Origin: Thauera sp.
GTDB taxonomy: Bacteria; Pseudomonadota; Gammaproteobacteria; Burkholderiales; Rhodocyclaceae
NCBI GenBank assembly: GCA_017302295.1
Contig: JAFLDS010000023.1
Coordinates: 1 to 45,986 of the forward strand
Length of the DNA stretch: 45,986 bases
Direction of reading: 5' to 3'
Position numbers and translations under genes: made by a program. The notes below the pieces were generated by a model. The model was not told the DNA's origin. It was given only the letters and a program-made list of their open reading frames with translations, and searched no databases. Positions 19,523 to 35,370 of the stretch are shown piece by piece (within the stretch, counting starts at the first letter, position 1; every line of letters begins with the position of its first letter).

Positions 19523-20125
19523 GGATCTTGGGCTTGCTTCAACTGATTGAACGGCGGGACTTCGGCCTGAGCCGACATTGGGTTACCGGTCCGGGGTAGG
19601 CGGCAATGTGATGCTTACCTGACGTTCGGTTGCTAATGGTGGTCAATGACAGCCGTTATCGGTGACGTAGGACAGCACCCGACCCACAAGAAACATTCAC
19701 CCATTCGGTGATTCCGTCGCCGGTTTCTGAGCGGAGCCCAACAGTACTTGTTAGACCGGATCGCACCGCGTTTCGAGGAGGTCATTCGGCGTGAGTCAGT
19801 CCCAACGGTCTGTACCTTCGTCTGCAGTAGTCGTTTCCTTCACTCCCGGGCAGGCGGAATGTACCCGAGCGGCTCAAGCAACCAGTGGAGACCGAACGAT
19901 AGGAGTCATGCGGACGTGGCCAACTCGACCGCTGCAACACTTTTCCGCGGGCCTCACCGTTGGATGACTTCCGCCTTGTCTTTATTGCTGTGCAGTCGCT
20001 CGGCACGGCCAAGCTGGAAAGCACCGTCCGCTGTATAGCCCCTGCGTGCGAGTGCCCTTGTCATGTCAGATAGGAATTGAAGGTATCGTCTACTTGTTCC
20101 GCATGATTATGGGCATAGAACTTTC
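19523..20125. other. Gene-poor stretch, no recognisable feature
   Basis: About 600 bases between the antitoxin promoter and the metallophosphoesterase gene. Short open frames on both strands here have unusual composition and no family resemblance. No transposase, tRNA or repeat was recognised. It looks like decayed accessory DNA. Confidence 0.5.
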
Positions 20126-21091
20126 ATGGCATACGACATCATCGGTGACCTTCACGGCCAAGCGGAGAAGCTGGAGCGGCTCCTGCGAGCGCTCGGCTAT
20201 CAACTGCGTGATGGATCCTGGCGTCACCCCGAACGAAAGGCGATCTTCGTGGGCGATTTCATCGACCGCGGCCCGGCGCAGTTGCGCACGGTCGGCATCG
20301 TGCGCCGGATGGTGGAGAGCGACGCAGCGTTCGCCGTGATGGGCAATCACGAACTCAATGCGGTTGCCTGGCACACACCTCATCCGAATGGAAGCGGCGA
20401 CTACCTGCGTTCCCACTTTCACCCTCAGTGGGGCGACAAGAACCGCCACCAGCATCAGCGCTTCCTCACCGAGGTTGAGCACCAGCCCGACGTCCATCGC
20501 GAGCTGATCGAATGGTTCCTCACGCTCCCCCTTTGGCTCGATCTGCCCGGCATCCGGGTGGTGCACGCCTGCTGGCACCAGCCCTACATGGACTGGCTGA
20601 ATCCCTTCCTGACCGACAACAAGCAGTTGCCACGCGCACTGCTTGAAGCGGCAACTTGCGAACCCGATGACCCCGCAACGAAAGACGACGCTACGCCGTC
20701 CGTCTTCAAGGCCGTCGAGGCGCTGCTCAAAGGCATCGAGATTCCGTTGCCCGAACCACATCACTTCACTGACAAGGACGGTATCGTGCGCAAGCGGGTA
20801 CGCGTCCGCTGGTGGGACGGGCAGGCTCAGCGCTATCCGCAGGCAGCCATGCTTTCTCCCGACCTGCGCGAACAACTCCCGGATTTGCCGATCCCCGCTC
20901 ACGCCGTCCTGCCGCACGCGGCGGGCAAGCCCATCTTCTTTGGGCATTACTGGCTCACGGGCGAGCCCGAAGTGCTTGGCCCGCCTTGCGCCTGTGTGGA
21001 CTACAGCGCAGGTAAAGGTGGCGCCTTGGTAGCCTACCGCTGGAACGGCGAGTCGACGCTTGCGGCGGCCAATTTCGTCGCGATTTCCTGA
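20126..21091 (+). CDS. Calcineurin-like metallophosphoesterase
   Basis: A 321-residue cytosolic phosphoesterase with an intact two-metal site: GDLHG (residues 7-11), GDFIDRGP, GNHELNAVAW, a histidine in VVHACWHQ and the last metal histidine in FFGHYWLTG. The order and spacing are those of PrpE/serine-threonine-phosphatase-like enzymes, which can cleave phosphoproteins or dinucleotide polyphosphates; the substrate cannot be told from sequence. It ends 11 bases before an ADP-ribosylglycohydrolase-like gene in the same direction, so the two are probably co-transcribed. No strong ribosome site precedes the ATG. Confidence 0.88.
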   Translation: MAYDIIGDLHGQAEKLERLLRALGYQLRDGSWRHPERKAIFVGDFIDRGPAQLRTVGIVRRMVESDAAFAVMGNHELNAVAWHTPHPNGSGDYLRSHFHPQWGDKNRHQHQRFLTEVEHQPDVHRELIEWFLTLPLWLDLPGIRVVHACWHQPYMDWLNPFLTDNKQLPRALLEAATCEPDDPATKDDATPSVFKAVEALLKGIEIPLPEPHHFTDKDGIVRKRVRVRWWDGQAQRYPQAAMLSPDLREQLPDLPIPAHAVLPHAAGKPIFFGHYWLTGEPEVLGPPCACVDYSAGKGGALVAYRWNGESTLAAANFVAIS

Positions 21092-21102
21092 AGGCGCGGA
21101 CC

Positions 21103-22284
21103 ATGGCACGTTTGTCGAAACAAGGGCTGCGCGAGCACTTCCGCGGGTGTCTGCTCGGCGGTGCCTTGGGAGATTCACTCGGGGCAAATGTCGGGTCCAT
21201 GCCTGGCGGCGAGATTCGGCAAGCCGCCGGGGCGGATGACCTGCAGGGGCCGGCGCGCACGTCTTGGCGGCCGGGCACCATCACGCATCAAACTCAGTTG
21301 ACGCTCTTCACCGCGGAAGGTTTGTTGAGCCCACTAGCCGCCGAGAAGCGGCATGATCCGGATACGGTGCGGCAAACCCTGGCCGCGGCCTATCTGCGCT
21401 GGCTGTGCACCCAAGGCGAGTCGCCTTCATTGCAGCACCAGGTCGCCTCGGGCTGGCTGCTCGATCACGCCGCATTGCATTGCCGGCGCAGCCCCGGAAA
21501 AGCCGTCATGGACAGCCTGACCACTCTCACCCGTCTCGATGATGCTGCGGGCAACGACAGCAAGGACTGCGATGGGCTGATGCGCGTTGCGCCTGTGGGC
21601 ATGTTTGCGCGCGCGCTCAACTATCGCGTGCCGCGATGGTGCTACCGCAGCAAGGCGCTCGAGTGGGCATGCGATGCCGCACTGGTCACCCATGGACACA
21701 TCACCGCGCAGCTTGCCGCCGGCGCGTTCTCGCTGATGGTGTACCGGGTGCTCTGCGGCTGCTCGATCACCACGGCGGCGAAAGACGCCCTCAAGGAACT
21801 GAGCGCATACCCGGGGCATGAAGAAGTCACACTCGCCGTTCGCATCGCCCTGAAACTGGCGAAGTCCCAGGTCACGGTTTCCGCGGGCATTCGCCGCCTG
21901 GGCGACGGCAGAACCGCCGATGAGGCGCTCGCCATCGGCGTACTCTGCGCGGTGCGCGCCGAAGATTTCGCTGGTGGCGTCCAGGCAGCGGTCAGTCACG
22001 ACGGTCATCGCAGCGCGACCGGACTGATCACCGGCACCCTGCTCGGAGCCCGTCTAGGCGCATCCGCACTACCACAGGACGGGCTGGAGCAGCTTGACTT
22101 GAGGGACGTGCTTGAAACCGTCGCAGATGACCTCTCGCTGCAGTGCTACGCCGATACTGCCGACGGCAATACGGCCGAACGCGCCCAGCGCCGCGCACGG
22201 TATGGTCTTGCAGCGTCACTCTCTATGATGACCCCGGCCAGTATTGCAGATATCGAGGAGCTGAGTGCCTTGTTCGACTATTGA
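21103..22284 (+). CDS. ADP-ribosylglycohydrolase family protein lacking the metal-binding aspartates
   Basis: A 393-residue member of the ADP-ribosylglycohydrolase (DraG-like) family. Strong family segments: FRGCLLGGALGDSLGA (14-29), TQLTLFTAEGLL (64-75), NDSKDCDGLMRVAPVGMF (151-168), LVTHGHITAQLAAGA (194-208) and TGLITGTLLGARLG (306-319). Active members bind two magnesium ions through TDDT near residue 62 and GDSDST near residue 302. Here these read THQT (H62, Q63) and GHRSAT (H302, S304), so all four signature aspartates are replaced. It is therefore probably not a hydrolase but may still bind ADP-ribose or an ADP-ribosylated partner. Co-directional with the metallophosphoesterase upstream; convergent with the ankyrin gene 32 bases downstream. 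Confidence 0.85.
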   Translation: MARLSKQGLREHFRGCLLGGALGDSLGANVGSMPGGEIRQAAGADDLQGPARTSWRPGTITHQTQLTLFTAEGLLSPLAAEKRHDPDTVRQTLAAAYLRWLCTQGESPSLQHQVASGWLLDHAALHCRRSPGKAVMDSLTTLTRLDDAAGNDSKDCDGLMRVAPVGMFARALNYRVPRWCYRSKALEWACDAALVTHGHITAQLAAGAFSLMVYRVLCGCSITTAAKDALKELSAYPGHEEVTLAVRIALKLAKSQVTVSAGIRRLGDGRTADEALAIGVLCAVRAEDFAGGVQAAVSHDGHRSATGLITGTLLGARLGASALPQDGLEQLDLRDVLETVADDLSLQCYADTADGNTAERAQRRARYGLAASLSMMTPASIADIEELSALFDY

Positions 22285-22316
22285 GCGAACAGGCACCGCT
22301 TACCTTCCGCCGAGGG

Positions 22317-22994
22317 TCAAACAAAGCCTTCTTCCACTAACAGGCTGCCGGCCGAGGTGATCTCGTGCCGCTGCCCAGAGCCGCCGAACACACGGCACCA
22401 ACTCTCCGTTACCAGTTTCGCATCGACACCATCGGCGACGAGATCGTAAGCAAACCCACCGTACATCCCCGGTACAGCGAACCACATCGTGAAAGACCCG
22501 GGTTCGCGTGGCGCCGGCAGCTCAAGCAGCGGCTCCAACTCGGGTAAGCGCAGCGCATGCTCGCGAACCAAGTCGTCCACACGTCCGCGAATCACCGCAT
22601 GGAAGTGCTGCTGGATCTTGAGCAGTATCCCGACAGGCACTTGGCGCTGGAGCACTGGCGTGAGGATCGCGAAAAGATGGGAATGCCCCTTGCGAACAGC
22701 CACATCCAACGGCCTCTCTCCTCGTGCATTCTGCAGTGTGCGCCACGCCCCCAGCCGGATCAGCCTGCTGACGATTTCAACGGGGGCTCCAGCATGTGCC
22801 GCCTGATGCAGGGGCGTATACATCGACTTGCCATCCGGACGGCAGCCATTGACGCCAAACGGAGAATTTTCCAGTAGCGTGAAAAGCTGAGGCCAGTCGT
22901 ACCGCTTGGCTGCATCAGCCAGGGCATGAGCCTTCTTCACCACGTCTTTTTTCAGCGTTGCAGCCTTCGTGATCCCACACCACTCTATGCTCAT
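22317..22994 (-). CDS. Ankyrin-repeat protein
   Basis: A 225-residue protein whose first half has ankyrin repeats (YTPLHQAAHAGAPVEIVSRL, then the following repeat with RGERPLDVAVRKGHSHLFAI). The second half, from about residue 120, is a distinct domain ending in FAVPGMYGGFAYDL and SWCRVFGGSGQRHEITSAG, with glycine/aromatic-rich blocks, whose function I do not know. No signal peptide. It is convergent with the ADP-ribosylglycohydrolase-like gene and may be a separate unit; ankyrin repeats point to protein binding. Confidence 0.75.
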   Translation of the reverse strand: MSIEWCGITKAATLKKDVVKKAHALADAAKRYDWPQLFTLLENSPFGVNGCRPDGKSMYTPLHQAAHAGAPVEIVSRLIRLGAWRTLQNARGERPLDVAVRKGHSHLFAILTPVLQRQVPVGILLKIQQHFHAVIRGRVDDLVREHALRLPELEPLLELPAPREPGSFTMWFAVPGMYGGFAYDLVADGVDAKLVTESWCRVFGGSGQRHEITSAGSLLVEEGFV

Positions 22995-23129
22995 GAATTC
23001 TCACTTTGGCAGCAGTATCGCCCTCCGCGTACGCGGCATACGCATTGCAATCTGCAAACATTCGCTTCAGATAGTCGTGACTGGACTTCTGGATCCAGCG
23101 TGACTTTCAGTCCACAACACGCACGCCGA

Positions 23130-23603
23130 TTAGGGCCGCGGCCGGGCCCACAGCGCAGCGAGTGCATCGGGAGACAATGTCAGGTGCTCCCACCAGTCCA
23201 TGCCGGTTCGTGCCACGCGGCCCGGCAACTCCCTCCACGTGTATTCCTGTCCGGATGCTTGTGCAGCCTCAAAGGCTTTGCGCTCCTTCTTCACCTCCTT
23301 ATCGGTGAACTCCTTGCCGTAACCACCTCGGCGCATGTGCGCCTTGTACGCATGCCAGGCAAGTGACTTTCCAAAACGCTGGTGCAACCAATAGTGGCAG
23401 CTACCGCACAGGGCGTACTCAGCAGGAGGTGTCCAGCGATAGGGCTTTGAGTAATCCTCACTGTGCTGTTCGACCGGCGCCTCAGGGTCACCGCACATCA
23501 TGCAGGGGGTGCTCTCTTGGGGAAGTCCAGCTGCCCGACGACGCTTGAGTTCATCAAATTTTTCTTGTCGCTCTTTGGCGGTATAGCCGTTATAGGGCCC
23601 CAT
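23130..23603 (-). CDS. HNH-like zinc-binding protein
   Basis: A 157-residue protein with a treble-clef-like zinc site: C34-x2-C37, H47 in QHSEDYSKP, then C66-x2-C69-H70-x3-H74. The C-x2-C...H-x2-DY-x-P...C-x2-CH-x3-H pattern is frequent in small phage- and island-encoded proteins related to HNH nucleases. A full HNH catalytic set is not obvious, so nuclease activity is uncertain. The start is set by AAAGGAGG six bases before the ATG at 23603; an ATG five codons upstream would place that site inside the gene. The C-terminal 70 residues are not recognised. Confidence 0.65.
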   Translation of the reverse strand: MGPYNGYTAKERQEKFDELKRRRAAGLPQESTPCMMCGDPEAPVEQHSEDYSKPYRWTPPAEYALCGSCHYWLHQRFGKSLAWHAYKAHMRRGGYGKEFTDKEVKKERKAFEAAQASGQEYTWRELPGRVARTGMDWWEHLTLSPDALAALWARPRP

Positions 23604-23618
23604 CCTGCCTCCTTTCAT

Positions 23619-24108
23619 TGGGTATGGCTATCATACAAATTCAGATCAAAGGCGGTACGATCAAACAGTCCTCGTGCACTCCCATTGGTGGGTCAATTAC
23701 CCACCTCAGGGCAATGTTACCCATAATGGAATCTAGCCGACAGGAGGGGAGTCGTCCCGTTGCAGCCTATCTCATTGATCAGATCAATCATTGCCGCCAA
23801 GCAAAAATTGGAGAGGTTGCACGTAATCAGGCGGCGGCAGGTCTGAACCCGGCGCGGCTGCCCGCCAAGCACCCTTTGCCGGCCGGCGGCTGCTTACCGT
23901 GACGATGCCGAGAGGGTACTATCGGCCATCTACGTCGTTCCACCTCTAGAAGCCATGGTCATTCGAGTGTCAGGTCCACGCCGAAACATGTCCGAATGTC
24001 CACTTCGGCTGCTCGGCCTTTGCTGAAGTTCGTTCCGCATCAAGACACCGGTCGCTCTGAGTGGCAAAACACTCCTAGGACGTATCTACATAAATCGAGG
24101 CAACTCAC
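23619..24108. other. Intergenic stretch with repeated TGGGTA-like half-sites
   Basis: About 490 bases between two minus-strand genes. The first 100 bases hold three TGGGT(A/C)A-like half-sites, including one perfect hairpin described separately. A 92-codon frame from the ATG at 23624 (MAIIQIQIKGGTIK...) runs rightward but has no ribosome site and no family resemblance, so I do not call it a gene. The rest shows nothing recognisable. Confidence 0.4.
23687..23705. promoter_or_regulatory. Perfect inverted repeat, candidate operator
   Basis: GGTGGGT (23687-23693) and ACCCACC (23699-23705) form a perfect 7-bp inverted repeat around CAATT. Related half-sites occur upstream (TTGGGTA near 23619) and downstream (GTTACCCA near 23715). 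The cluster lies just upstream of the HNH-like gene; the binding protein is unknown. Confidence 0.35.
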
Positions 24109-26036
24109 TCAGCTATTCGCGATCAGTGAATTGTCGCTCGGGACTACTACCGGTAGTGCCGGCCATATCTTGCCCATCTGCAAATACAAGTGACGTGTCC
24201 GTTTCTCAATAGCTTCTTCGTTCCAATATTCAGCGTCACTACCGTGGAAATACTGGGTGAGGTTCAGCTTGCTGAACTTCAGTAGTTCAGGGCGCTTAGT
24301 GCCCCAGTTACTATTGGACAGTGACGGGTTCAGGCTGCCGGTGATAAGCGTCAAATTGCCGAGGGTATTAACCAGCCTATTACGCCGCGCAACTGCTTGT
24401 TGTTCCGTTACAGGGTCCACCTTGTCCTCATCCGAAAGCGCCCAATGGGTCTGCCAAGACTGAGGCATAACGTGCTCGATGGTCAGCCCGGGAGGTAGGG
24501 GAAGTGGTTCGCTCTTCGCGTCCGGAGAGTAGGCGTCAAGCGCTTCGAGAATAGAGCGCACCTTGTACTGGGCGAGACGGTTATACAAGGGCATACCGAA
24601 AGTCGCTGTCTCGAATGCGCTGTCGTCGGGGAACAGTGTGCTGTCGGCGGTGCTCTTCGCCATGTATTCAACGACATTGGCAGCGGTGATTGCCCCCTTC
24701 TTATCGAGCGCCCGCATCAAATCGATGAAGTAGCGGTTGTAGTTCTTGGTGGTCATCGCGCAAATCATGCGCCGCATCAGGTAGGACTCGATCAACTCAA
24801 GGATCCGGTCGAATTCGTCGGTGTGTTTGGGTACGAGCTCGGCATAGGCATAGAGCAGGAACGGGTACACCGTAGTCGTGTCGATGGCTTCCAGGCGGCG
24901 CAGGAATGTCGCCAGGCGTGCGTGTTTGCCTGGTTCGTAGAAAGTCTTGAAAACATCAGCGTAGCGAGCGAGTCGCGCTAAATGTTCGGCGGGGGTCTGC
25001 GGGGTCTTCAATAGCGAGCCGGTTGCTGATTCTGATTGCTCGGCAAAAGCCTTGAAGGCATTGAACAGGTGCGAAGATTTCACCTCGTCCCGGGTCATCA
25101 TCGCCAGATAGTGGTTGATGAAGACATCGACGCGGGGGCGGGTGATGCGGCCCTGCTTGACCTCCTCTCGCCACCAGTTGGTCTCGAAACGCTGCCAGTA
25201 GTCGGCGTAGAGCCTTTCAACATCCTTGCCGCCAGAGGCCGCGTCGGCGCGTCGGCGCGTCGGAACAGAAAATTCTTGATCAGATCGGCAGGCAATAGGT
25301 CCTCGCCGCGCGCATTGAGCGTTTCGAAGATGACTTGGGTCTCATCGTCCTTGTCGAGGTCTATCACGACAAGCTGTAGGCAATCTTTGACGACATGCCA
25401 GAGAGAATCGAAACGATCGTCGAGCGTCTTGGGTTTCAATACTTCCTCATCAAGGTCATCGTCTAGTTCGCCATTAAGCCAGTCCGTGAGCTGGTAATGG
25501 AAGTAGCGATAGCCATCGACGACGTTGTTGGTGCTGTCCTTCAGCGCGGGTTCATTGCTGATGATTTTATCAAGGGCGTCGGGTGAGCCGGCCGCGTGAA
25601 CCGCCTTGAACGCAGCGCGATTGCTGTTAGTGGGCCATACTTTGTAAACCTCGTTATCATGATCAATGCGGTTGCGCCGATTGGCGACGAGATCGGTAAA
25701 ACGCTCGGCGTACTTCGTGTTGCCATGTGCGTTGGCGTGGTCGCGGGCCGCCATAAGGAATAGCTGCAGGGTGGTGAAGCGCTGCTGTCCGTCGATGACC
25801 TGCCGGCTTTCGATTGACCCCGTTGGATTCGCCAGTTGCTCCAGAACGACTGCGCCCAAGAAGTGTGGATGAACCTTGCCGCCACGCAGATGCTTATCGA
25901 GCAGTGCTTGAATGTCTTCCCACAGCGGTTCCCAGTTGGCCTCTTGCGTCCAAACATAGGGGCGCTGAAAAAGTGGTACCTGGTAGGTGATGGTCGAATC
26001 GAAAATGCGTTCGAGCTTACGGGTGTTGGCGTCCAT
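24109..26036 (-). pseudogene. DUF262/DUF1524 (GmrSD-like) restriction protein, frameshifted
   Basis: Two adjacent frames make one GmrSD-type protein. The first (from 26036) has the DUF262 motifs VPLFQRPYVW (20-29) and VIDGQQRFTTLQLF (80-93), the DGQQR nucleotide-handling motif, and runs to LIKNFLFRRADA. The second continues with KDVERLYADYW, RPRVDVFINHYLAMM and the DUF1524 HNH-type end (TIEHVMPQSW, NTLGNLTLITGSLN). The break falls at three copies of an 8-bp repeat (25240-25263). Removing one copy restores one continuous 639-residue protein. GmrSD enzymes cut modified phage DNA. Base composition is more AT-rich than the flanking core genes. It is either an inactive allele or a reversible phase-off state. 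Confidence 0.88.
25240..25263. repeat. Triplicated 8-bp repeat (CGCGTCGG)x3 at the frameshift
   Basis: Exactly three perfect tandem copies of CGCGTCGG lie inside the GmrSD-like gene at the point where the reading frame breaks. Two copies would keep the frame (the protein then reads FRRADAASGGKDVERLY), whereas three shift it by two bases. The pattern is what slipped-strand replication produces. Confidence 0.9.
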
Positions 26037-26612
26037 GACGAGCAGTTTTCTTTTTAGCTAGTTAAGTGATGTGGGGATGATACTTTAGGCGCTTTCCCTT
26101 AGCTCATGCCCCGAGTGAACGCCGCCGACAAGCCATAGTCTGGCCCCCCGACTTACTGAGACCCATCCGATGACTGCTTTTTCAATCAAAGTGGTCGGCC
26201 TCATAGAGGGATTCGAACGGCATGGCCGACATGGAGTCAACCGGTTGCTGCGCTTTGTGACCGCTCTACTCGCTTACCTGCCGGATAGGCGACGTTTGAG
26301 CGAGTGACTGTTCCGGTCGGGTTGCGACCGACGCCTACTTGGGTTCATCGCCGGAAAGCCGCCGCTGGAGGTTCGCTTCCCGTAAGCTGCCGCTCGCCCA
26401 CGAGTCGTCTCGACCCTGACCTGCCTGATGATGTTTGCAAGATCGCAGTCGGCTTTCGAATCTTCAAGCGGTCAGTCGTTTCTTTAGGCTGCCCCTCGTC
26501 GTCCACCGAATCCAAGGGTGAGGAAGTCGACGCGAAGAGCACAAGACGAACAGCAAACGACAGTTATCTATGACGCGTGCCCAGTTGGACGGACGTTCCG
26601 CTCACCACAGAC
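26037..26612. other. Gene-poor stretch upstream of the GmrSD-like gene
   Basis: About 575 bases without a credible gene. Short frames on both strands have no family resemblance. The left 60 bases must contain the promoter of the GmrSD-like gene, but no convincing -35/-10 pair or ribosome site was found. The remainder looks like decayed accessory DNA. Confidence 0.5.
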
Positions 26613-27389
26613 TCAGGCCACGAGCGGGATTGCTCGCGCAGCTTCCTCGACGCATCGGTCCATCAACGATTGATCGACATTCGCGAGTGCCTGCCCTGCT
26701 TGATCACGCAGCAAGTAAAGACAAACCTGGAGGCGGTGGTTCACCAGGACGTTTTGCGAACCCGCTCGAAAAACATCAATACCGCTGACATAGCTGAGGT
26801 GACGCTTAATCGTTTCTCCATACTTCGGATGCATGCGTCTGAACTGCTCATCCGTCAGGCCGGCTCCCTGCAGGATATCCAACAATTTGCTCGTTCCTGC
26901 CGGTGACGCGGGAGCAAGGGGCGGCACGACCGGTCGCGGAGGCGACGTCGGTTCGATGGGTGCAATCTTGATGGGCTCATCGTGACTTCGGCGCTGCAGC
27001 ATGGTCGCGATCTCCTCGAGGGTGGTCCGGATCTGTTTCCGATCCAATCCGCTACGATCCGGCGACACGATCACCTCGATGCCCTCTGCAATAACGCACC
27101 GAACGAGCGGCTCCATGTGAAGGCCCCGCGGGTCGTTCTTCGGGCTCGGGGCCTCGGCCAGGGGCTCTGCTTGTTCCGAGTCGACCTCCGTACGGCTTCG
27201 AGAAGCTCCCCTCTTGCCTGTGCTCATAATCTTGCGCAGTTGATCGAGGTGGTCCTGCGAATAGGTGGCGTACCTGCCCTGAAGAACCGGTGGTGCGAGA
27301 AGGCCTTCGGTCTGGTAGTAGCGGATCGTTCTCGCGGGGAAGCCGCTCAGTTCCGCGAGCTCATCAATGCTCCAGGCTTGCTTGGCCAT
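26613..27389 (-). CDS. MerR-like regulator with a novel C-terminal domain
   Basis: A 258-residue protein with a MerR-type winged helix-turn-helix at the start (SIDELAELSGFPARTIRYYQ, TEGLLAPP, residues 7-34), a polar linker, a middle segment of about 50 residues (VRCVIAEGIEVIVSPDRSGL), a proline-rich linker (about 148-165) and a C-terminal domain from about 167 to 256. That last domain resembles the C-terminus of the divergent neighbour (14 identities in 40 ungapped positions, 217-256 here). The ATG at 27389 has GGAG five bases upstream; a TTG one codon earlier is too close. It probably controls the shared intergenic promoter. Confidence 0.8.
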   Translation of the reverse strand: MAKQAWSIDELAELSGFPARTIRYYQTEGLLAPPVLQGRYATYSQDHLDQLRKIMSTGKRGASRSRTEVDSEQAEPLAEAPSPKNDPRGLHMEPLVRCVIAEGIEVIVSPDRSGLDRKQIRTTLEEIATMLQRRSHDEPIKIAPIEPTSPPRPVVPPLAPASPAGTSKLLDILQGAGLTDEQFRRMHPKYGETIKRHLSYVSGIDVFRAGSQNVLVNHRLQVCLYLLRDQAGQALANVDQSLMDRCVEEAARAIPLVA

Positions 27390-27421
27390 CAACGCTCCAA
27401 TCGAGGATCTATCATTGCAGT

Positions 27422-27456
27422 TACTGTTGCAGTACTAGGCATCGTAGATGTAATAT
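27422..27456 (+). promoter_or_regulatory. Divergent control region: promoter plus palindrome
   Basis: TACTG (27422-27426) and CAGTA (27430-27434) form an inverted repeat with a 3-base centre, overlapping a rightward -35 box TTGCAG (27427-27432). After an 18-base spacer follows TAATAT (27451-27456). Long spacers with a dyad near the -35 box are typical of MerR-controlled promoters, and the MerR-like gene starts 33 bases to the left. Confidence 0.5.
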
Positions 27457-27489
27457 AAATCAACTAAGTTCATCGCGGAGAATCATCAT

Positions 27490-28326
27490 ATGTTGGAGAG
27501 CTCAACCCAAAGCGGTCTCTATCTCGTCACTCTCAACAATGATGTGCCGATCTCGGTCAACGCCGACGACCGTCGTCTCGCTGACCGCGCGATCAAGGTT
27601 CGGCGGGGGAATCTCAAGGTCGGCAAGGCCGTAGATCTCGTCCGCCGCCATCGAAACTACACCAAGACCTTTGGCAGTGGCAGCGTGAATTTTCACATCC
27701 TTGCGTACGTTTCCGGTGGAAAAGGTGATCTTCAGCGGGTCGAGAAGGCCGTCCTTGAAGGTCTGGCTCCTTTTCGAATCCGGGGTCAGCGACGGTTGAC
27801 AGAATGGCTTGGCGGTGTCGGCGAGCCGCGCGCGCGCGAGGTGGCATCCGAGGCATTACGTCGGTCCGGCGTTGAGTACGTTCTTGCTTCAGAAGGGGCT
27901 CAAGGTTCAATGGAAGTTCAGAAGATTCAGAGCGAGAAAGGGAGTGCTTCGATGGTTCATCCGCTCAGCTGCGCCCCGGGGCATGACTCAACCCGGTCGT
28001 CCCTGCAAAGTGGAACTTACGCCGGCCGGTCCATTGAGTTGATGAGTCTTCTCATCGCTAGCGGTCTTCTCACGGATCCGCTTTTCCGGTCACTGCACCA
28101 CTCAGGAACAGGGTTGAGGGCTCACCGGACACATTGCGAAGGACTGGTCGAGAACGGTAGCGATTTCGCCCGAGGCAAGAACGGGGAGAAGAATCGAAGG
28201 GTCTGTCGACGCCTTGAACTGATAGCCGATCAACTCGGGCGCCTTAACTCGCAGGTTAACGGGGAAGAATTTGACGAGCTTGTTCAATATGCGCTTCGGG
28301 AGTACCCGCTTGAAACGGCAGCGTGA
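27490..28326 (+). CDS. GIY-YIG-like protein with a C-terminal domain shared with the MerR-like neighbour
   Basis: A 278-residue protein. Residues 9-130 look like a divergent GIY-YIG (T5orf172-like) nuclease domain: GLYLV (9-13) for GIY, LKVGKA (42-47) for YIG, arginines in DLVRRHRNY, and the conserved glutamate in VEKAVL (E85), then RIRGQRRLTEWL. The second tyrosine is lysine, as in some family branches. Residues 183-274 resemble the C-terminus of the divergent MerR-like protein: GLLTDPLFRSLH here against GLTDEQFRRMH there, and an ungapped 40-residue block with 14 identities (235-274). GGAG lies nine bases before the ATG. The domain call is from motifs only. Confidence 0.65.
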   Translation: MLESSTQSGLYLVTLNNDVPISVNADDRRLADRAIKVRRGNLKVGKAVDLVRRHRNYTKTFGSGSVNFHILAYVSGGKGDLQRVEKAVLEGLAPFRIRGQRRLTEWLGGVGEPRAREVASEALRRSGVEYVLASEGAQGSMEVQKIQSEKGSASMVHPLSCAPGHDSTRSSLQSGTYAGRSIELMSLLIASGLLTDPLFRSLHHSGTGLRAHRTHCEGLVENGSDFARGKNGEKNRRVCRRLELIADQLGRLNSQVNGEEFDELVQYALREYPLETAA

Positions 28327-28708
28327 TCCCGTGATCGGTTCCAGAACGTTTCTCGTTTTCGCCGTGCTCGCATTGTCGATGCTTGGCTTGCCAGGCAGTG
28401 CCCATGCCTCGGCGATTGGAGCAATCGCTTTTCTGGTCACCAAAGTTTTCGGTGAGGGGGCGGTTGTCCGGGAACTGGGCCACGTCGGGCGGGCCGCTGA
28501 CGGCAAGACCACAACGCAGGCGACTGGCGTGCGAGCAGCGGATGTCGCTCCCGTTCGTGCAACAGAGCGTGACCTCGCTGCCGCGCGGAATCCTGAACTG
28601 CCGCAGCGCACAGCCCTTCAGCGGCCTGAGTCCTCAGCTTCTGTTAGTGCAGGGCCAGTCGATGCGCCGCAAGCGAAGGCAGTAGTACCCAGACGGCGGC
28701 TAGCCTAG
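28289..28708 (+). CDS. Small exported protein of unknown function
   Basis: A protein of up to 139 residues with a clear signal peptide: a basic start, the hydrophobic run SRTFLVFAVLALSMLGLPG and a SAHA cleavage site. The mature part is about 100 residues, rich in alanine, arginine and threonine, with no recognised domain. The start is uncertain: TTG at 28271 has GGGGA upstream, ATG at 28289 overlaps the previous gene by 38 bases, and GTG at 28331 would give the most compact signal peptide. Same strand as the GIY-YIG-like gene and probably in its operon. Confidence 0.5.
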   Translation: MRFGSTRLKRQRDPVIGSRTFLVFAVLALSMLGLPGSAHASAIGAIAFLVTKVFGEGAVVRELGHVGRAADGKTTTQATGVRAADVAPVRATERDLAAARNPELPQRTALQRPESSASVSAGPVDAPQAKAVVPRRRLA

Positions 28709-28779
28709 CGATGCCCACGCATAATTGTCACAGTGAACTCTGCTGCCGATATTGATTTATCCCGATTAAGATTTTTTCT

Positions 28780-29211
28780 ATGTACCCTAAAAACCAAGCA
28801 CGACTCATCATGGAAGCTGTCGCGATACTGCATCAAAGAGGCTTTGGTCGCCTAAAACTTTTCTGCTATTTCAAAGAAGGCCTGGGAGCTTGGAGGCATA
28901 TGCTCTTTGCTTCGGAGACCTTTCCCGACCACATCCGCGACTTGCCTGAGCTAACGGCCAGCTGCTCTCTTCCAGGTTGGCCCGTCTCTTGGGGCAAGAC
29001 TCCAGAGGAGATCGCCGACGGAATCACTGCCAAGTATCCCCAACTAATGGAGGCTGCACTCGGGAGCGATGATCCCTATGTAACCTGGTACCGGAACGTG
29101 CTCGCAGAGATCCCGAAGGGCATCCTTCAAATGGAGTCTTCAAAAGTGGCAGTAATTAATGGCGTTTCGCTGAGCCCGAAAATCTTCAATACTTTCTCGG
29201 CGACGGATTGA
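28780..29211 (+). CDS. Hypothetical protein
   Basis: A 143-residue soluble protein beginning MYPKNQARLIMEAVAILHQR and containing GFGRLKLFCYF and WRHMLFASETFPDH. The start resembles small accessory-region proteins with an AVAxLHxxGYGRLR-like beginning that I have seen but cannot name. It is more AT-rich than flanking genes and has no ribosome site; the ATG follows a T-rich stretch. No operon partner is obvious. Confidence 0.5.
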   Translation: MYPKNQARLIMEAVAILHQRGFGRLKLFCYFKEGLGAWRHMLFASETFPDHIRDLPELTASCSLPGWPVSWGKTPEEIADGITAKYPQLMEAALGSDDPYVTWYRNVLAEIPKGILQMESSKVAVINGVSLSPKIFNTFSATD

Positions 29212-29477
29212 TACCCGAAATTCGCGCTAGGTGACGTTTCTCAGCCGCTATGTTTCTTAATTGCCGGGCTGAGTCCTTCACCCCTGGTTCCGCTCGTAGG
29301 GACCCAGCGAATCGGATCGTCTGCGACAGGCTTGAGCCAACATAAAACCGGCGTTCACCGAGTCGGAGACTGAGTGGCTGCTTCGCAAGCAGCGGGCTAC
29401 AAGCGCGCGACTGCTCGATCCTTGACTGGCATCACCTTGTATGCATGACGCTACCGCACTGGACGAAGCAGTAAGGT

Positions 29478-30338
29478 ATGCTCAGCTACGAGAGACAGCC
29501 GACGATGCGATACCGCAAACCGAGCACTACAACATCTCGCCTTCGGCTGACACTTCTGCTGCTCACATTCTGCGCGTCCCTATATGCACTGACCGTCGAA
29601 CCTAATTGGGTGGAGAGTAGGCATTACGAGAAAAGCGCCCCTGGACGCCAGTCTGTTCGTATTGCCCTCGTGACGGATCTTCACCTAAACAGTATCGGCT
29701 ACCGCGAACGCAGTCTCATCAAGATACTTGAGCAAGCCAAGCCCGACATCCTTGTCCTCGGAGGCGATGTCGTCGATCAGTCCGATGATCTACCGGTGCT
29801 ACGCGAACTGCTGTCCCGGGTTGCAGTTCCGCAAACGGTTGCTGTGCTTGGCAACTGGGAATACTGGAGCGAGATGCCTTTTAACGAGTTGGAGGCGCTC
29901 TACCGCGAAAACAAGGTAGCGTTGCTGGTCAATGCTGCCGTAGAGATCACGGTCACTGGCCGCCGAGTTCGCTTGGTCGGCCTAGATGACGCTACGGCGG
30001 GTACGCCACGACTAGATGTCGCGACGCGGGCGCCCGACGACGATAAAGCTGAAATTTCTATTCTGATCCAGCATTCGCCGGGTTTCTTCACTACTAAATC
30101 GGCGCGCCGCGACTTGGCTGGAAAAGGATTCGATCTCTGTTTGTCCGGCCACACCCACGGCGGCCAAGTTACGATTTTCGGTTGGCCACTTGGACTGTTG
30201 CCGCCCGGCAGTGGTGATCTTGTGGCAGGGTGGTATGAAACGGCGATGTGTCCGCTGTACGTGTCGCGGGGGCTGGGCACCTCACTGATACCGGTTCGGT
30301 TCTTCGCACGGCCGGAAGTGACGCTATTCGACTTGTAG
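29478..30338 (+). CDS. Membrane-anchored metallophosphoesterase (YkuE/YaeI-like)
   Basis: A 286-residue protein with an N-terminal membrane anchor or uncleaved signal (RLRLTLLLLTFCASLYALTV, about 22-41) followed by a periplasm-facing calcineurin-like domain. Metal motifs are DLHLN, LGGDVVDQ, VLGNWEYW, QHSPGFF and SGHTHGGQV. In most relatives the GNHD/GNHE motif has histidine where this protein has tryptophan (GNWEYW). YaeI/YkuE relatives act on UDP-sugar lipids or other envelope phosphoesters; the substrate here is unknown. An internal ATG at 29505 is an alternative start. Confidence 0.82.
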   Translation: MLSYERQPTMRYRKPSTTTSRLRLTLLLLTFCASLYALTVEPNWVESRHYEKSAPGRQSVRIALVTDLHLNSIGYRERSLIKILEQAKPDILVLGGDVVDQSDDLPVLRELLSRVAVPQTVAVLGNWEYWSEMPFNELEALYRENKVALLVNAAVEITVTGRRVRLVGLDDATAGTPRLDVATRAPDDDKAEISILIQHSPGFFTTKSARRDLAGKGFDLCLSGHTHGGQVTIFGWPLGLLPPGSGDLVAGWYETAMCPLYVSRGLGTSLIPVRFFARPEVTLFDL

Positions 30339-30445
30339 GCCAGCGTTGAGGGTGCGGAGGGACATCTTCTGGGCTTGGAAACAAAACCCGATGCAGGGAA
30401 AAGGCTGCGACGCTCCGATGACCTGCTATTTCGTCAGTTGGGATG

Positions 30446-30583
30446 TCAGTGTGTGGTACTGCGACGGCAACAAGAACAGCGCACGCTGATGCCCATCCGA
30501 GCCGCCGCGATCTGCTGCGTCGCCTGCCTTCTTGCTTCCTTGTATTTGCGCACTTGTTGGTCCGTGATCTTCTTGCCGGGCAC
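30446..30583 (-). pseudogene. IS21-type transposase (IstA) N-terminal fragment
   Basis: From a GTG at 30583, with GGGAGG upstream, the frame reads PGKKITDQQVRKYKEA then ATQQIAAARMGISVR before breaking off after 45 residues. This is the characteristic helix-turn-helix start of IS21 IstA transposases (KRITDQQVR...AAAKAGISVRSARR). The rest of istA and all of istB are absent, so this is a remnant. Confidence 0.75.
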
Positions 30584-30658
30584 CGGGCGCCTCCCAACGC
30601 CTCTCGTCAGAAGAGCACTCTATCCCTCGCTTCCGGACCTTCCCGGCTGCAGATCCAA

Positions 30659-30703
30659 CCGGCCAAGATAGTTGTCGTCGACCGGTCAGGCTAATTGTCG
30701 CCG
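30659..30703. repeat. Two direct repeats, probable IS21 end
   Basis: Two 22-base units (30659-30680 and 30682-30703) agree at 17 of 22 positions; each contains CCGG at one end and TTGTCG near the other. IS21 elements carry several such repeats at their ends, just outside istA, and the IstA fragment lies 76 bases away in the right orientation. Confidence 0.6.
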
Positions 30704-30757
30704 GCCAAGCTTCCCCTTGTTCCAGGCTCCGCGATGCGGATGTTCTCGGGTTTCCAT
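30686..30757 (-). pseudogene. Tyrosine recombinase (integrase) N-terminal fragment
   Basis: From the ATG at 30757 the frame reads METREHPHRGAWNKGKL. This matches the first residues of a common family of tyrosine-type integrases (HPHRGAWNKGKLVGQK...). Homology ends exactly where the IS21-type end begins (about 30706), after which the frame reaches a stop, so the integrase was probably interrupted by the insertion element and the rest later lost. Confidence 0.55.
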
Positions 30758-30905
30758 GACAGGCTCCTTGCTGTTGATCGGAGTCTGATTCTTGAACCCG
30801 TGGCGTGCGGCGGCTATCGGGGAAGATGCCCACAGCGTACGACCGGCCAATGCTGCTGCCCGATGTGCAGGGCTGATCCTCTCGGTTTTCGCCACCGGTT
30901 CACCC

Positions 30906-30934
30906 TTGTTCAACCGTATCCATATGGATACAAT
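30906..30934 (+). promoter_or_regulatory. Promoter with perfect 16-bp palindromic operator of the HigBA-like module
   Basis: TTGTTC (30906-30911), a 17-base spacer and TACAAT (30929-30934) form a good sigma-70 promoter. The perfect palindrome GTATCCATATGGATAC (30916-30931) covers the spacer and -10 box, the standard position for autorepression by an antitoxin. The predicted RNA start (about 30941) coincides with the toxin ATG. Confidence 0.75.
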
Positions 30935-30940
30935 TCCACT

Positions 30941-31240
30941 ATGAACACCTTCCTGCGTACGGACGATTTCGACGCCTGGCTTGTCGGCTTGAAAGACAAC
31001 GTGGCACGAGCTCGCATCGTCCACCGTATCCGCTCTGCCGAACACGGAAATTTTGGCGACTGTGAGCCGGTAGGTGAAGGCGTTTCGGAAATGCGCATCC
31101 ACGTCGGCCCTGGGTACCGCGCTTACTACACGCGACGTGGGGCAGTGATCTATCTGCTTCTGCTGGGCGGGGATAAGTCGTCGCAAAAGCGCGACATTAA
31201 ACGTGCCATCGAGATGGCGCGGCTTTTGGACAAGGAGTGA
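30941..31240 (+). CDS. RelE/HigB-like addiction module toxin
   Basis: A 99-residue toxin of the phage-derived Gp49-like/HigB group (RelE superfamily mRNA interferases). The signature is ARIVHRIRSAEHGNFGDC, then GEGVSEMRIHVGPGYRAYY and LLLGGDKSSQKRDIKRA. It precedes its antitoxin by three bases, the usual toxin-first order of this group. There is no ribosome site before the ATG and the predicted promoter would start the RNA at or next to it, so the toxin may be translated from a leaderless message, keeping its output low. Confidence 0.92.
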   Translation: MNTFLRTDDFDAWLVGLKDNVARARIVHRIRSAEHGNFGDCEPVGEGVSEMRIHVGPGYRAYYTRRGAVIYLLLLGGDKSSQKRDIKRAIEMARLLDKE

Positions 31241-31243
31241 ACG

Positions 31244-31531
31244 ATGGTCAAGACCGCCACCTTTGACGCTGCCGACTACCTGAACGATGAGGAAACCATC
31301 GCTGAGTATCTGACAGCAGCCCTGGAAGACCCAAACCCTGATGTCTTCCTCACTGCCGTTCGCGACGTTGCGCGCGCCCGTGGCATGACGCAGCTCGCCA
31401 AGGATGCGGGTCTTGGCCGTGAGAGCCTGTACAAAGCACTCACGCCCGGCGCGAAGCCACGCTATGACACTGTACTCAAGCTGCTTCATGCCCTGGGCGT
31501 GAAGATCTCCGCAACACCAGTCCATTCTTGA
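31244..31531 (+). CDS. HigA-like antitoxin (addiction module antidote protein)
   Basis: A 95-residue helix-turn-helix antitoxin. DAADYLNDEETIAEYLTAAL is the typical start, and the DNA-binding part reads ARARGMTQLAKDAGLGRESL with YDTVLKLLHALGVKI after it. It binds and inhibits the toxin and is the likely ligand of the palindromic operator at 30916-30931. AAGGAG lies seven bases before the ATG, in contrast with the toxin gene, so antitoxin translation should be much stronger. Confidence 0.92.
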   Translation: MVKTATFDAADYLNDEETIAEYLTAALEDPNPDVFLTAVRDVARARGMTQLAKDAGLGRESLYKALTPGAKPRYDTVLKLLHALGVKISATPVHS

Positions 31532-31741
31532 GGCTTGCGGTAGCGTCGGCCACCGTGCCCGAGCAGTCGATCGACAGAAGCGCCTGCAGTTTCCCTCCGA
31601 GCTTCAATCTCTGACGCTCGAACGGCAGGTGACCAGCACATCGCTGCCTGACTGCGCCATCAAGCCACCGGCAGCTCAGGCCGATTTGTGTGACTTTGCC
31701 TTCCGACAGGCTCCGGAGTGTAGCGGTCGGCCATATCGCTG

Positions 31742-33994
31742 CTAGCTCACGGTCGCCCAACACCCATCTACGTCTTTCCACACTTCCTCACCCTCGATCA
31801 CTTCCAGAAATCGGGGAGCACTGAACCCCTCGGGATACAAACTCTTCGACACTGGGTCCTCCATGTCCGGAAGAGCGCTCTCGTCCAAGTTGCCGCGCAG
31901 GAGGCCGGCCGGATCCTGCAGGAGGTACGAATCATCCCGCAGTGCGATCAAGACCTCTTCCAGCGACACCTTGAGAAAACCCTCGAACCGCTGGTGGTCA
32001 CACTCGATGGAGGTATCGACGATCCACCCGTGAGTACTCAACTCCTCCTCGCCACCATTCAGCGCGTGCATTTCTGAGAACTGGATATCCGTTAGCGCCC
32101 GCTGGACCGCCGCCACCTTACGCCGCAGCTGGATGCCTGCCTTGCGGAGTGTTGTCGTCGAATGCAGCCAAGCGTCGCGCTTCGATTGCCTCAGGTAAGT
32201 GGATTTGAGCTCAAGAACGAGCACTACGCCGTCACGGGCGCAGACTAGATCAACCTCGCCGGGGATCTCAGAGTCGGTAGGCGGCGGTGTCCAATTCAGG
32301 ACAACACGAAACCCTCTCGATTCGAATAGCTGGCCGAGCCGCTCCTCGATTCGTCGCGTCTCGTGCCGGGCTTCGTCGCGACGCGCCCCCAAGCGACGCA
32401 GGTTGTTGATCGCGGCGGAGCTGTTGTTCTGTACCCCCACGACCCATGGCAGTTGCACGAGGAGCGACCCAAGCTTCAAGACAGGCCGCTCAAATAGCCC
32501 CGGCTGCAAGCCGCCTCCGCCCTCGCGCATCCGCTTGCCTAGGTGCCCCCAGTCACTGGTCCAGAAGTCCAGAATCGCTGCCGCCATCTGCAGGCTGCCG
32601 TTGGGACAGTCGTCGCGCACCGTCCAGCCTAGGATCTTTGCGATCTTCTCTGACCGATCGGACCACGTCAGGGGGAATCGATTCTGGAGCCCGTCAGCAA
32701 GGCCAAAGAAGGCGAGGCGACTCAACGCAGCGAGCGTGTTCCTGCTGTCCTCGAGGTGCTCGGCAAACACCAACAGAAAGTCCCGTTGGAAGAACGCGGA
32801 CATCAGTTCAAGCGACAGCAGCGCCGTAAAGAGATGCACTTGCTCGCCAGTGTCGGCGGTCACCGTCTCATCGGCGCCGTACACCTCTGTCAGCCGAAGG
32901 TGGGTCCGCATGGCGGCAATGTAGGCAAACTGGTTTGCCTCATGATTCTCGGGGCGACCGATGATCTCTCCTGCCTTCTCCGACGATGCGAAGGCATACA
33001 TCGCCCGGTAGAGCCAGTAGACATGCAAGCGATCGAGTTTGCGACCATCCCTCGACCACGCCGCCCGCAAATCCGGATTGATCAGTTCGATCTCCAGCCG
33101 GTGGTCGTGCCGCACGAAGCGGATTGTGTCGTCGTAGCAAAACGCCTCTGCCGAGCGCGAGAGGAATCCATTGAGCTCCACCTGGTCCGCCATGACCTGC
33201 GCGAAGGCCGACACGATATCGTGCCGTGGCGGCGACCCGGACGGAGACGGAAAGATCAGCGGAGACAAATGTTTCCCGACTGACCTTGCAGCGTCAGTTT
33301 CCGAAACGCGCAGTGTGTGCTCCGGCGCCGTGGCGAGCTTCCAACTCACGAGGTCGGTGACGGCATCCCAGAACTCCTCGTCCGACGGCTGCTCGTCTCG
33401 CTCGTCCAGGACGGTGGTCCCCACGTTTCGCGGGACGAGCGTGTGGAAAGCATGAAGACTCGCGTATATGAGGAGTTCGAATGGCGTCAGTTCGGATAGC
33501 CGCGCCCGACTTTTCTCGAGCGCAACAATTCGTAATTGATGAGCCGCCTCGAAAATCTCAAGGACACGGCAAAGTTCCGCCACCTCAGGAGCGACGTCGG
33601 CCACCCCAGCCAACTCCGCGAGTCGCGGGGATGTCGAGCGCAAGACGAGTCCCGAGCGCCGCACCGCGTAACACACGGTGTCGGGCAACGACTGCGCGAG
33701 CCTCGAGAGGAGCGGGATATTGGCGACGCGATCCTGCGAGAAGTACCGCACCAAGGCCAACGTGAAGGGCTCTGCGGCCCATCGCTCGGCGGGCACCGCA
33801 CACACGACGGCACTGCTCCAGAAGGCCTCATCCCGCTCTGCCTTCGAGACCTTCTTTTTCCCGCGCAGGCGTGGCTTGCCATCCAGGTAGTCTTCAAACA
33901 CAAGACGCAGGGCATCCCCGGGCGCTCTTCCCGACGCCTGCAATCGCTCAAACGCCGCGTCGTAGGCGTTGAAGGGCATCTCGGATCCGCACAT
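31742..33994 (-). CDS. Large PD-(D/E)XK nuclease-domain protein of unknown system
   Basis: A 750-residue cytosolic protein. The first 550 residues are mostly helical with no domain I recognise. Near the C-terminus is a restriction-endonuclease-like core: GEVDLVCARDGVVLVLELKS with D582 and E595-x-K597, a helix with Q622 (AGIQLRRKV) and an upstream glutamate-rich helix (RRIEERLGQLFESRGF). The ATG at 33994 lies six bases beyond the stop of the Mrr-like gene; its ribosome site GGAGGGG is inside the last codons of that gene, so translation is coupled. An ATG at 33979 is an alternative. Paired with a membrane Mrr protein in a defence-rich block, a role in restriction of foreign DNA is likely but inferred. 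Confidence 0.75.
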   Translation of the reverse strand: MCGSEMPFNAYDAAFERLQASGRAPGDALRLVFEDYLDGKPRLRGKKKVSKAERDEAFWSSAVVCAVPAERWAAEPFTLALVRYFSQDRVANIPLLSRLAQSLPDTVCYAVRRSGLVLRSTSPRLAELAGVADVAPEVAELCRVLEIFEAAHQLRIVALEKSRARLSELTPFELLIYASLHAFHTLVPRNVGTTVLDERDEQPSDEEFWDAVTDLVSWKLATAPEHTLRVSETDAARSVGKHLSPLIFPSPSGSPPRHDIVSAFAQVMADQVELNGFLSRSAEAFCYDDTIRFVRHDHRLEIELINPDLRAAWSRDGRKLDRLHVYWLYRAMYAFASSEKAGEIIGRPENHEANQFAYIAAMRTHLRLTEVYGADETVTADTGEQVHLFTALLSLELMSAFFQRDFLLVFAEHLEDSRNTLAALSRLAFFGLADGLQNRFPLTWSDRSEKIAKILGWTVRDDCPNGSLQMAAAILDFWTSDWGHLGKRMREGGGGLQPGLFERPVLKLGSLLVQLPWVVGVQNNSSAAINNLRRLGARRDEARHETRRIEERLGQLFESRGFRVVLNWTPPPTDSEIPGEVDLVCARDGVVLVLELKSTYLRQSKRDAWLHSTTTLRKAGIQLRRKVAAVQRALTDIQFSEMHALNGGEEELSTHGWIVDTSIECDHQRFEGFLKVSLEEVLIALRDDSYLLQDPAGLLRGNLDESALPDMEDPVSKSLYPEGFSAPRFLEVIEGEEVWKDVDGCWATVS

Positions 33995-33999
33995 CGATG

Positions 34000-34977
34000 C
34001 TACCCCTCCACGCCGTGACGATGCGTGCTCTTGTCGGCAGCACGCATGGGCAACATCGAACGGCACCTCGGGAAGCTTGGGCAGCCCCAGAAGGGCCCGC
34101 GCTTGCTCTCGCGAGCCATCATCTTGGCACCGCAGCCCGGGCAGGTCGGCGTAATCCAGTCGCCCTCCGTAGCAAACGCCAGAAGCTCCGCACGAGAGGT
34201 CTCGGGCAGACGCTCCAACATGGCCAGAAAGAGTCGGCCGTCGACCAAGGTGATCCGATTCTCGCCCGCGAATGCTCGCGCATCATCGGTGAAGCCGTTC
34301 GGCGCCATGAAAAACCCCTTTTCGACGCTCTGGTGCGCCATGACACCACGCAGCTCGCGAATCAGCTTGACGCCAACGGCCTGGCTCCATGCCTTGCATT
34401 GAACGATCGCCGTGCAACGACCAGGATCACCATCATTCTGAAAAAGCCGGATGTCGACGCCGCCGTCAGCGCCCAAGTCCGTGGTCTCGGCCCGTATCCC
34501 CTTAATCCGGTAAAACTCGCAGCACACATCTTCGAAGCGCTTCCACTCGAGCCGATCGATAACCTCCCGTGTCCACTCCGTCGGGCGCTCTGGGACGCAG
34601 AGGGGCATGCTCTTCTCGCTGCACGCAGGCATGAGGGCCTCGTCAAGCGCCGAGAGCGGCGGATTAACCGCTGCGGACACTGGCTCAGTCCGCCTCACCT
34701 CCCCGCTGCCCTCGCTCGGCAATGAGGTCTTCGCCTGCTGCCTGGAGAAGCGAAGCAGGGAAATGCAGCCGAACACGGTGGCCATCATCCAAGCCAAGGG
34801 GGTGACGAGCGCAGCCACCCCGCGCAGTAATGGCTGTCCACCAAAGAGAACAGGCACGATCACCAAGGCACCTACTACGCAGAAGGCGGACATGCCTGCG
34901 GAGACCTTCCAGTCCGAAGTGAGTGCGATCTCGATCAGCCCCGGTTCGCGACGGGATTTGCGGTAACGTCGATTCAT
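34000..34977 (-). CDS. Membrane-anchored Mrr-like restriction endonuclease with zinc finger
   Basis: A 325-residue protein in three parts. Two membrane segments (about 29-46 and 53-76) come first. An Mrr_cat domain follows (about 140-255): EWKRFEDVCCEFY, TDLGADGGVDIRLF with D175, and AIVQCKAW with Q193-x-K195. A C-terminal topoisomerase-type zinc finger has C279, C282, C299 and C305 (CPGCGAKM, FWGCPSFPRC). Mrr enzymes cut modified DNA; membrane-tethered versions are found in many proteobacterial islands. First gene of a two-gene unit with the 750-residue nuclease-domain protein. No strong ribosome site at the ATG. Confidence 0.88.
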   Translation of the reverse strand: MNRRYRKSRREPGLIEIALTSDWKVSAGMSAFCVVGALVIVPVLFGGQPLLRGVAALVTPLAWMMATVFGCISLLRFSRQQAKTSLPSEGSGEVRRTEPVSAAVNPPLSALDEALMPACSEKSMPLCVPERPTEWTREVIDRLEWKRFEDVCCEFYRIKGIRAETTDLGADGGVDIRLFQNDGDPGRCTAIVQCKAWSQAVGVKLIRELRGVMAHQSVEKGFFMAPNGFTDDARAFAGENRITLVDGRLFLAMLERLPETSRAELLAFATEGDWITPTCPGCGAKMMARESKRGPFWGCPSFPRCRSMLPMRAADKSTHRHGVEG

Positions 34978-35025
34978 GGCGTGTGATTATGCTGAAAGCA
35001 ATGAGAGAAGGTGTCACGGGAATGG

Positions 35026-35370
35026 TCAGAGGTGTGAATTTCGCCGCGGCACGAAGGGGCAGCCTTGCGGGGCGTGCTCACGCGCCTGCAACTCGGTCAG
35101 GAACTGGTCGAGACGCTCGTAGCATTCCTCGCCTCGCAGCAGGCGGGATTCCGAGATTCCGAAGTACACGCAATGGAGCCCCGCGGCGCGGGCAAACTCC
35201 AACAACGCGGCGTCGTACTCACTGGTGCGCGAACCGGGGCCGGAACTACCTAAGGTCACGAGGCAGGAGCGATCACCATGAGGGTGATGCCGAAGAAAGG
35301 AGATCGCATGGGCGAGGTGAAAAGACCCACTACCCGCTGACGGGTAGGAGCGCAGACGGAGTCGGCTCAA
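35026..35370 (-). CDS. Hypothetical protein or gene fragment
   Basis: A frame of up to 114 residues with a plausible protein-like middle (SEYDAALLEFARAAGLHCVY, FGISESRLLRGEECYERL) but an implausible arginine/serine-rich beginning. It could be a short gene with a different start or the remains of a longer gene at the island edge. No family recognised, no ribosome site seen. Confidence 0.3.
   Translation of the reverse strand: MSRLRLRSYPSAGSGSFHLAHAISFLRHHPHGDRSCLVTLGSSGPGSRTSEYDAALLEFARAAGLHCVYFGISESRLLRGEECYERLDQFLTELQAREHAPQGCPFVPRRNSHL

Follow-up and report, generated by a model that had tools for sequence, protein, structure and literature searches.

We analyzed a stretch of 45,986 nucleotides from Thauera sp. 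(contig JAFLDS010000023.1, assembly GCA_017302295.1), referred to here as the window, in which a gene for a MerR-like regulator and a gene for a GIY-YIG-like protein lie in divergent orientation. Both proteins end in a helical region of about 95 residues, which we named D. A shared C-terminal domain had been proposed in an original prediction made from the sequence alone, and the gene positions and the divergent orientation were as given there. The features of the locus are as follows.

26616-27389, minus strand: MerR-like regulator gene (258 aa; listed open reading frame (ORF) 26613-27392)
26616-26906, minus strand: first D copy (MerR_D), placed by profiles that contain MerR_D itself
27390-27489, no strand: divergent intergenic region, 100 bp from the MerR ATG
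27490-28323, plus strand: GIY-YIG/T5orf172-like gene with C-terminal D (278 aa; listed ORF 27490-28326)
28018-28323, plus strand: second D copy (GIY_D), placed by profiles that contain GIY_D itself
28271-28708, plus strand: small ORF whose start resembles a signal peptide by eye; its membership in a module is unsupported

The C-terminal segments of the two proteins were aligned with a Smith-Waterman (SW) score of 81, which none of 5000 shuffles reached, nor any of 5000 in a repeat with slightly different segments. The full-length proteins scored 83 (0 of 2000 shuffles) and were paired by BLASTP at E 5e-6. As a control, 1585 other C-terminal segments of 100 residues were taken from six-frame ORFs of the window and the other loci read; the best of them scored 49 against MerR_D and 53 against GIY_D. 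The gapped alignment of MerR_D and GIY_D contains 33 identities in 88 positions, and a hand count on the translations confirmed the 14 identities in 40 ungapped positions that had been noted originally. Further support is provided by a second locus, in a betaproteobacterial metagenome-assembled genome (MAG; G149), where one D copy belongs to a relative of the GIY-YIG-like protein and another forms a frame of its own. The evidence from profiles is weaker. With a profile built from the D domains of the two GIY-family proteins, MerR_D gave E 8e-5 in a single comparison (reached by 2 of 5000 shuffles); with one built solely from the two copies of G149, E was 7.5e-5 (1 of 5000). Taken alone, cross-locus D scores of 41-48 fall inside the range of unrelated ORFs. 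Based on the pairwise score and on the chain from MerR_D to GIY_D (81), from GIY_D to the stand-alone G149 copy (64) and from the latter to the G149 nuclease copy (104), MerR_D and GIY_D are homologous.

In structural models of both window proteins D (about 95 aa) consists of 5-6 helices; its non-enzymatic character is assumed. The MerR model has a mean predicted local distance difference test (pLDDT) value of 72, with blocks of 60-94 inside D, which is entirely helical (helices 163-175, 180-186, 194-202, 204-207, 210-231 and 240-253). The GIY model has a mean pLDDT of 48, with parts of D better, and its low-confidence helices in D span 177-190, 196-203, 213-221, 223-228, 232-252 and 258-271.

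D is rare. Genome searches, in which weak matches were mostly uninspected, gave four clear copies. Among 297 family genomes 32 match profile A2 at E ≤ 0.1; all except the window's own genome do so at E ≥ 0.0099, and the few inspected resembled chance. Profile A3 matched three of 399 order genomes (the own genome, G149 and G739) and four of 398 phylum genomes, namely the own genome and three with weak, uninspected matches (E 0.002-0.007). The G739 match (E 0.0035) was rejected, lying antisense to transporter-like genes. D alone was not found in viral contigs, and plasmids matched only at E ≥ 3. Assignment to a known domain was rejected as well, since sequence searches of Pfam, NCBIfam, PHROGs, PADLOC and PDB gave nothing over D below E 0.1; the best matches over part of it were DUF1882 (E 0.1) and a PDB chain (E 0.12).

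The protein that carries GIY_D is probably GIY-YIG-like and a putative nuclease, as judged from weak family matches and conserved motifs. Both Pfam matches stay below their cut-offs (T5orf172, E 0.018, 16.0 bits, cut-off 20; MUG113, E 0.026, 15.6 bits, cut-off 22.3). In the G149 relative (L022) the same two models match at corresponding places, again below cut-off (E 0.0065 and 0.0063; 17.4 and 17.5 bits). G9-x-Y11, K43-V-G45, R52/R53, E85 and E105-W-L are invariant in the window protein and its one clear relative (2/2). We take the first four to be the GIY, the YIG-like motif, the catalytic arginine and the glutamate. A Foldseek search with the GIY model, which is too poor to use at its pLDDT, returned no E below 2.5. 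The N-terminal domains of the window and G149 proteins share 49 of 110 residues. Relatives of the protein were detected in three of 150 related genomes (the own genome, G149 and, weakly, G030 at 6.4e-4), in one of 369 class genomes (the own) and in one of 11 genomes of G149's family (G149 itself), and none in the plasmids, phages and viral contigs searched. A wide scan of genome contigs with two short peptide patterns gave one GIY locus; as a pattern scan it leaves absence elsewhere unproven.

The clear relative (L022/L025/L062) lies on a 64-kb contig of G149, of which 40 kb were read. The second D copy is found there as a stand-alone frame (L062:9612-9908), 2.3 kb from the nuclease gene and among restriction and defence genes; a PDC-S41 helicase gene adjoins the nuclease gene. 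The stand-alone copy was detected with profiles built without it, by A1 (the alignment of the window GIY-like protein and its one clear relative) at E 2e-7 and by A2 in two pieces of 16.5 and 17.3 bits, each reached by 0 of 3000 shuffles. The nuclease frame is intact. A single in-frame TAA splits the stand-alone copy, and the sequence matches before as well as after it; this is either a recent loss or an error of the MAG. No MerR relative was found in the 40 kb read (38 matches at E ≤ 1, none of them a MerR-relative frame), and G149 is not among the 67 of 150 genomes with a MerR match.

When the four copies were compared, the scores within a locus (81 in the window, 104 at G149) exceeded those between loci (41-64), and the lowest of the latter (41) joins the D copies of the two nucleases, despite their similar N-terminal domains. 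In global alignments the two nuclease copies share 28 of 86 residues and the G149 pair 27 of 83. Quartet trees placed copies of the same locus together as the best grouping in four of four alignments. These comparisons hint that D copies may evolve, or be exchanged, within a locus.

The MerR-like protein contains a MerR winged helix-turn-helix (HTH) at residues 8-58 (Pfam MerR_1, 2.6e-14), followed by a disordered stretch, a middle domain of beta-hairpin and helix (about 95-134), a proline-rich linker and D. Translation probably begins at the ATG at 27389, which follows the listed TTG by one codon and is preceded by a GGAG (by eye). In a Foldseek search with the model, MerR-family structures came first and predominated in the best 50 of 197 matches, none with E ≤ 0.001. 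The first ~140 residues, comprising HTH and middle domain, match a group of short MerR regulators with 28-42% identity. Many of the 67 genomes with a match had it via the HTH only. We examined 19 MerR-core loci, the best 16 from the 150-genome search, of which two (L003 and L004) look identical, and the best three of 14 plasmid records. At 18 of the 19, in hosts including Aquabacterium and Massilia, a VIT-VWA gene adjoins the MerR gene; in these two hosts it is annotated as such. None of the 19 carries a GIY relative or D; from the beginning of the match their frames run for another 132-156 residues, and the D profile scores at most 2.6 bits. The window genome (53 contigs) gave no VIT match at E ≤ 0.001, and viral contigs gave no MerR relative.

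The short MerR regulator and the VIT-VWA protein gene form a recurrent pair (e.g. L058, L059, L063-L069). One MerR-core relative (L060:5980-6414) has no VIT-VWA gene in the 12 kb read; it belongs to a plasmid region of Piscinibacter that contains TniQ, TniB and TnsA-type genes.

The short regulators share HTH and middle domain with the window protein and lack D. From these relatives and their VIT-VWA partners it follows that D was probably added to the window MerR, which, judged by its sequence relatives, seems to be a member of the VIT-VWA-linked group that gained D and another partner. Such an addition would also be expected if part of the nuclease gene had been duplicated and joined to the adjacent MerR gene, with a loose copy left at G149 and no functional link between the proteins. 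The best scores within each locus are what local duplication predicts, and the extra copy at G149 bears a stop codon. However, the two copies in the window have diverged to 33/88 identity without loss of either reading frame, and the D region of the MerR model has pLDDT blocks of 60-94, which points to an old domain that has been kept, and a similar outcome would be needed twice. We consider mere duplication to be improbable, and less likely than the coupling and recognition explanations given below.

The original prediction had envisaged a possible self-controlled module with a palindromic promoter, a small exported protein and shared domains that dimerise, and had named a conserved divergent pairing as support. 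What stands of it is the domain common to the regulator and the putative nuclease, and the only other locus found likewise contains two D copies. The conserved pairing was rejected, since the genes occur independently: the GIY gene without a MerR relative at G149, the MerR core without a GIY relative at 19 of 19 loci. When 19.9 kb around the pair were searched in 29 genomes (the own genome, 17 others of its genus and 11 others), 23 matched some part, and none among the matches listed covered the pair outside the own genome. The palindromic promoter fared no better. The best intergenic dyad, TACTG-TTG-CAGTA, was equalled in 685 of 1000 shuffles and in 349 of 500 random stretches of the island and was rejected as being at chance level (a genuine operator may be imperfect). 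In a repeat listing, the gap contained no more than a 7-nt direct repeat and one short palindrome, which overlaps the start of the nuclease gene, and a simple promoter scan gave no site in the 100 bp. The small ORF, which overlaps the nuclease gene by 56 bases, was dropped as a module member for want of a convincing homologue: it has weak matches only (E ≥ 0.0037) in six of 149 other genomes and no Pfam or NCBIfam family at E ≤ 1.

Which function could be served by one domain on a regulator and on a nuclease? According to the account of effector-associated domains (EADs) in PMC7159879, these are small and mostly helical, one copy sits on a core protein and one on an effector, often in the adjacent gene, and adjacent copies are the most alike. 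D shows two of these signs, being small, helical and (as assumed) non-catalytic, with copies on a regulator and an effector of one locus, and the best within-locus scores hint at the third (compare PMC7159879 and PMC8195603, as far as these papers describe EADs). On this ground we propose, tentatively, that D acts in the manner of an EAD and couples the GIY-YIG effector with a regulator or a partner. The presence of two D copies at both loci, the within-locus likeness by score, the like order of the predicted helices in the two window proteins, the lack of strongly basic character in the window copies and the defence context (GmrSD, Mrr, PDC-S41 helicase) are consistent with this. In such a system the MerR-D protein would bind DNA near the divergent promoter via its HTH and control transcription, and its D would contact that of the nuclease and either keep the enzyme inactive or direct it to a target, until release by a trigger. 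At G149 the partner would be the stand-alone D, whose frame is broken in that assembly. Contact between D copies, control of the promoter, nuclease activity and an anti-phage purpose are all parts that we infer.

Several observations weigh against coupling. Local identity is no higher in the pairs within a locus (33/88 and 27/72) than between GIY_D and the stand-alone G149 copy (31/73, with more gaps); because of these counts, coupling and the wider claim of a new domain family discussed below are both held with less confidence. The bootstrap values of the within-locus grouping were 50, 78, 95 and 64%, depending on the alignment, and the approximately unbiased (AU) test excluded one alternative in one alignment only. 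All comparisons come from two loci. The intact nuclease beside a stop-interrupted D at G149 means that a partner is not strictly needed there, unless the stop is a MAG error. Significant mutual profile hits, named as support in the original prediction, were not obtained by profile-profile comparison: hhalign with the two-sequence profile of GIY-family D against MerR_D was not significant (probabilities 2.5 and 1.1%, E 0.019 and 0.05). The helices of GIY_D follow the order of those in MerR_D, but the alignment behind each model included the D of the other protein, so that this agreement is not independent. Unlike published EADs, D matches no Pfam EAD model (five D rows scanned at E ≤ 10, with HMMER filters removing most matches above 0.1; only DUF1882 appeared, in one row), and its core is a MerR regulator, with no NTPase/vWA core among 14 window proteins scanned with Pfam, a subset of the ORFs in which one 774-aa ORF is matchless. 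Because of these two negatives D is not filed as an EAD. EAD1 was not found in the window's genome, and no control genome gave a match either. Finally, the G149 copies of D are basic (isoelectric points (pI) 10.4 and 9.2).

This basic character would suit another role, the main rival to coupling, in which D is a recognition domain through which both proteins respond to one and the same DNA feature or trigger, be it a sequence, a modified base or a phage product. The nuclease would cut what D recognizes, and MerR-D would sense the same and switch the nuclease on. Separate recognition domains occur in known GIY-YIG nucleases, as described for Odn (PMC8263062) and CMoRE (PMC12923530), and several of the neighbouring genes are type IV-like restriction genes. 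As presented in PMC8263062, Odn (ICP1 Gp88) is a T5orf172 nuclease that also carries a RepA_N-type DNA-binding domain, the latter in common with RepA, the initiator of PLE; here, too, one domain is common to a T5orf172-type nuclease and a DNA-binding protein. In Odn this domain lies at the N-terminus and comes from PLE, the rival element (PMC8263062), whereas D is C-terminal and its partner is the neighbouring gene. CMoRE/PD-T4-3 is portrayed in PMC12923530 as a GIY-YIG type IV restriction enzyme with an N-terminal GIY-YIG and a C-terminal modified-cytosine sensor, and the window protein has the same order of N-terminal GIY-YIG, linker and distinct C-terminal domain. CMoRE is described there as single-component, however (PMC12923530); its sensor and D are set side by side by description only. 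If D served recognition only, a stand-alone copy would be less expected, and the MerR protein already has an HTH of its own for DNA binding. The window copies are not strongly basic (pI 8.1 and 6.5), and neither the RepA_N model nor any Pfam DNA-binding family is among the Pfam matches of D. Recognition remains a doubtful though serious explanation.

A toxin-antitoxin-like pair, in which MerR-D would neutralise the nuclease by binding its D and repress transcription, is the least probable of the readings and in our view very unlikely. Adjacent genes, a DNA-binding partner and a shared domain would fit, and the island holds a further toxin-like ORF (Gp49-like, under the cut-off). However, the genes are divergent and do not form one operon, and at G149 the nuclease is intact while the only partner D found is interrupted and no MerR relative is present in the sequence read.

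The pair lies in an island of lower GC content (0.55-0.59 at 22-32 kb of the window, compared to 0.63-0.72 across most of the flanks), with GmrSD- and Mrr-type genes in this stretch and at its edge. The GmrSD-type (type IV restriction) gene (24109-26036, minus strand) is present in two overlapping frames, an N-domain ORF (25098-26036) and a C-domain ORF (24109-25101), that match consecutive parts of PADLOC mREase_IV, so that the split is probably a frameshift or an assembly error. A protein with an Mrr-type restriction endonuclease domain and a topoisomerase-type zinc ribbon is encoded at 34000-34977 (minus strand). The ORF at 30695-31240 (plus strand), whose Gp49-like (DUF891) match lies slightly below the cut-off, is overlapped by an antisense ORF of 279 codons. 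Short stretches around the island (23839-23928, 26315-26504 and 30478-31684) recur, in either orientation, at multiple positions of genomes from this genus and could be mobile-element ends or dispersed repeats. Rfam gave no match within 20000-37000.

The words GIY-YIG and MerR are absent from the main text of the two EAD papers (PMC7159879, PMC8195603). Literature searches returned no paper that joins GIY-YIG with an effector-associated domain and none on PDC-S41, and for GIY-YIG, MerR and defence no such system was apparent among the matches listed; for the MerR/VIT-VWA pair and for MADS, nothing apt appeared among the papers listed. In its widest form our proposal would make D the founder of an EAD-like family of coupling domains outside NTP-driven conflict systems, with a regulator that controls the nuclease gene and also holds or recruits the nuclease via D; in this form we regard it as rather unlikely. 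If D proves to be a recognition domain, the locus would provide another case, as in Odn, of a nuclease and a DNA-binding protein that share one. If D couples regulator and effector, the coupling logic of conflict systems, in which regulator and effector carry the same domain, would extend to a DNA-binding transcription factor as the core, and control of the gene would be linked physically and directly to control of the nuclease in a defence island. D also provides a searchable domain with which further such loci may be found.
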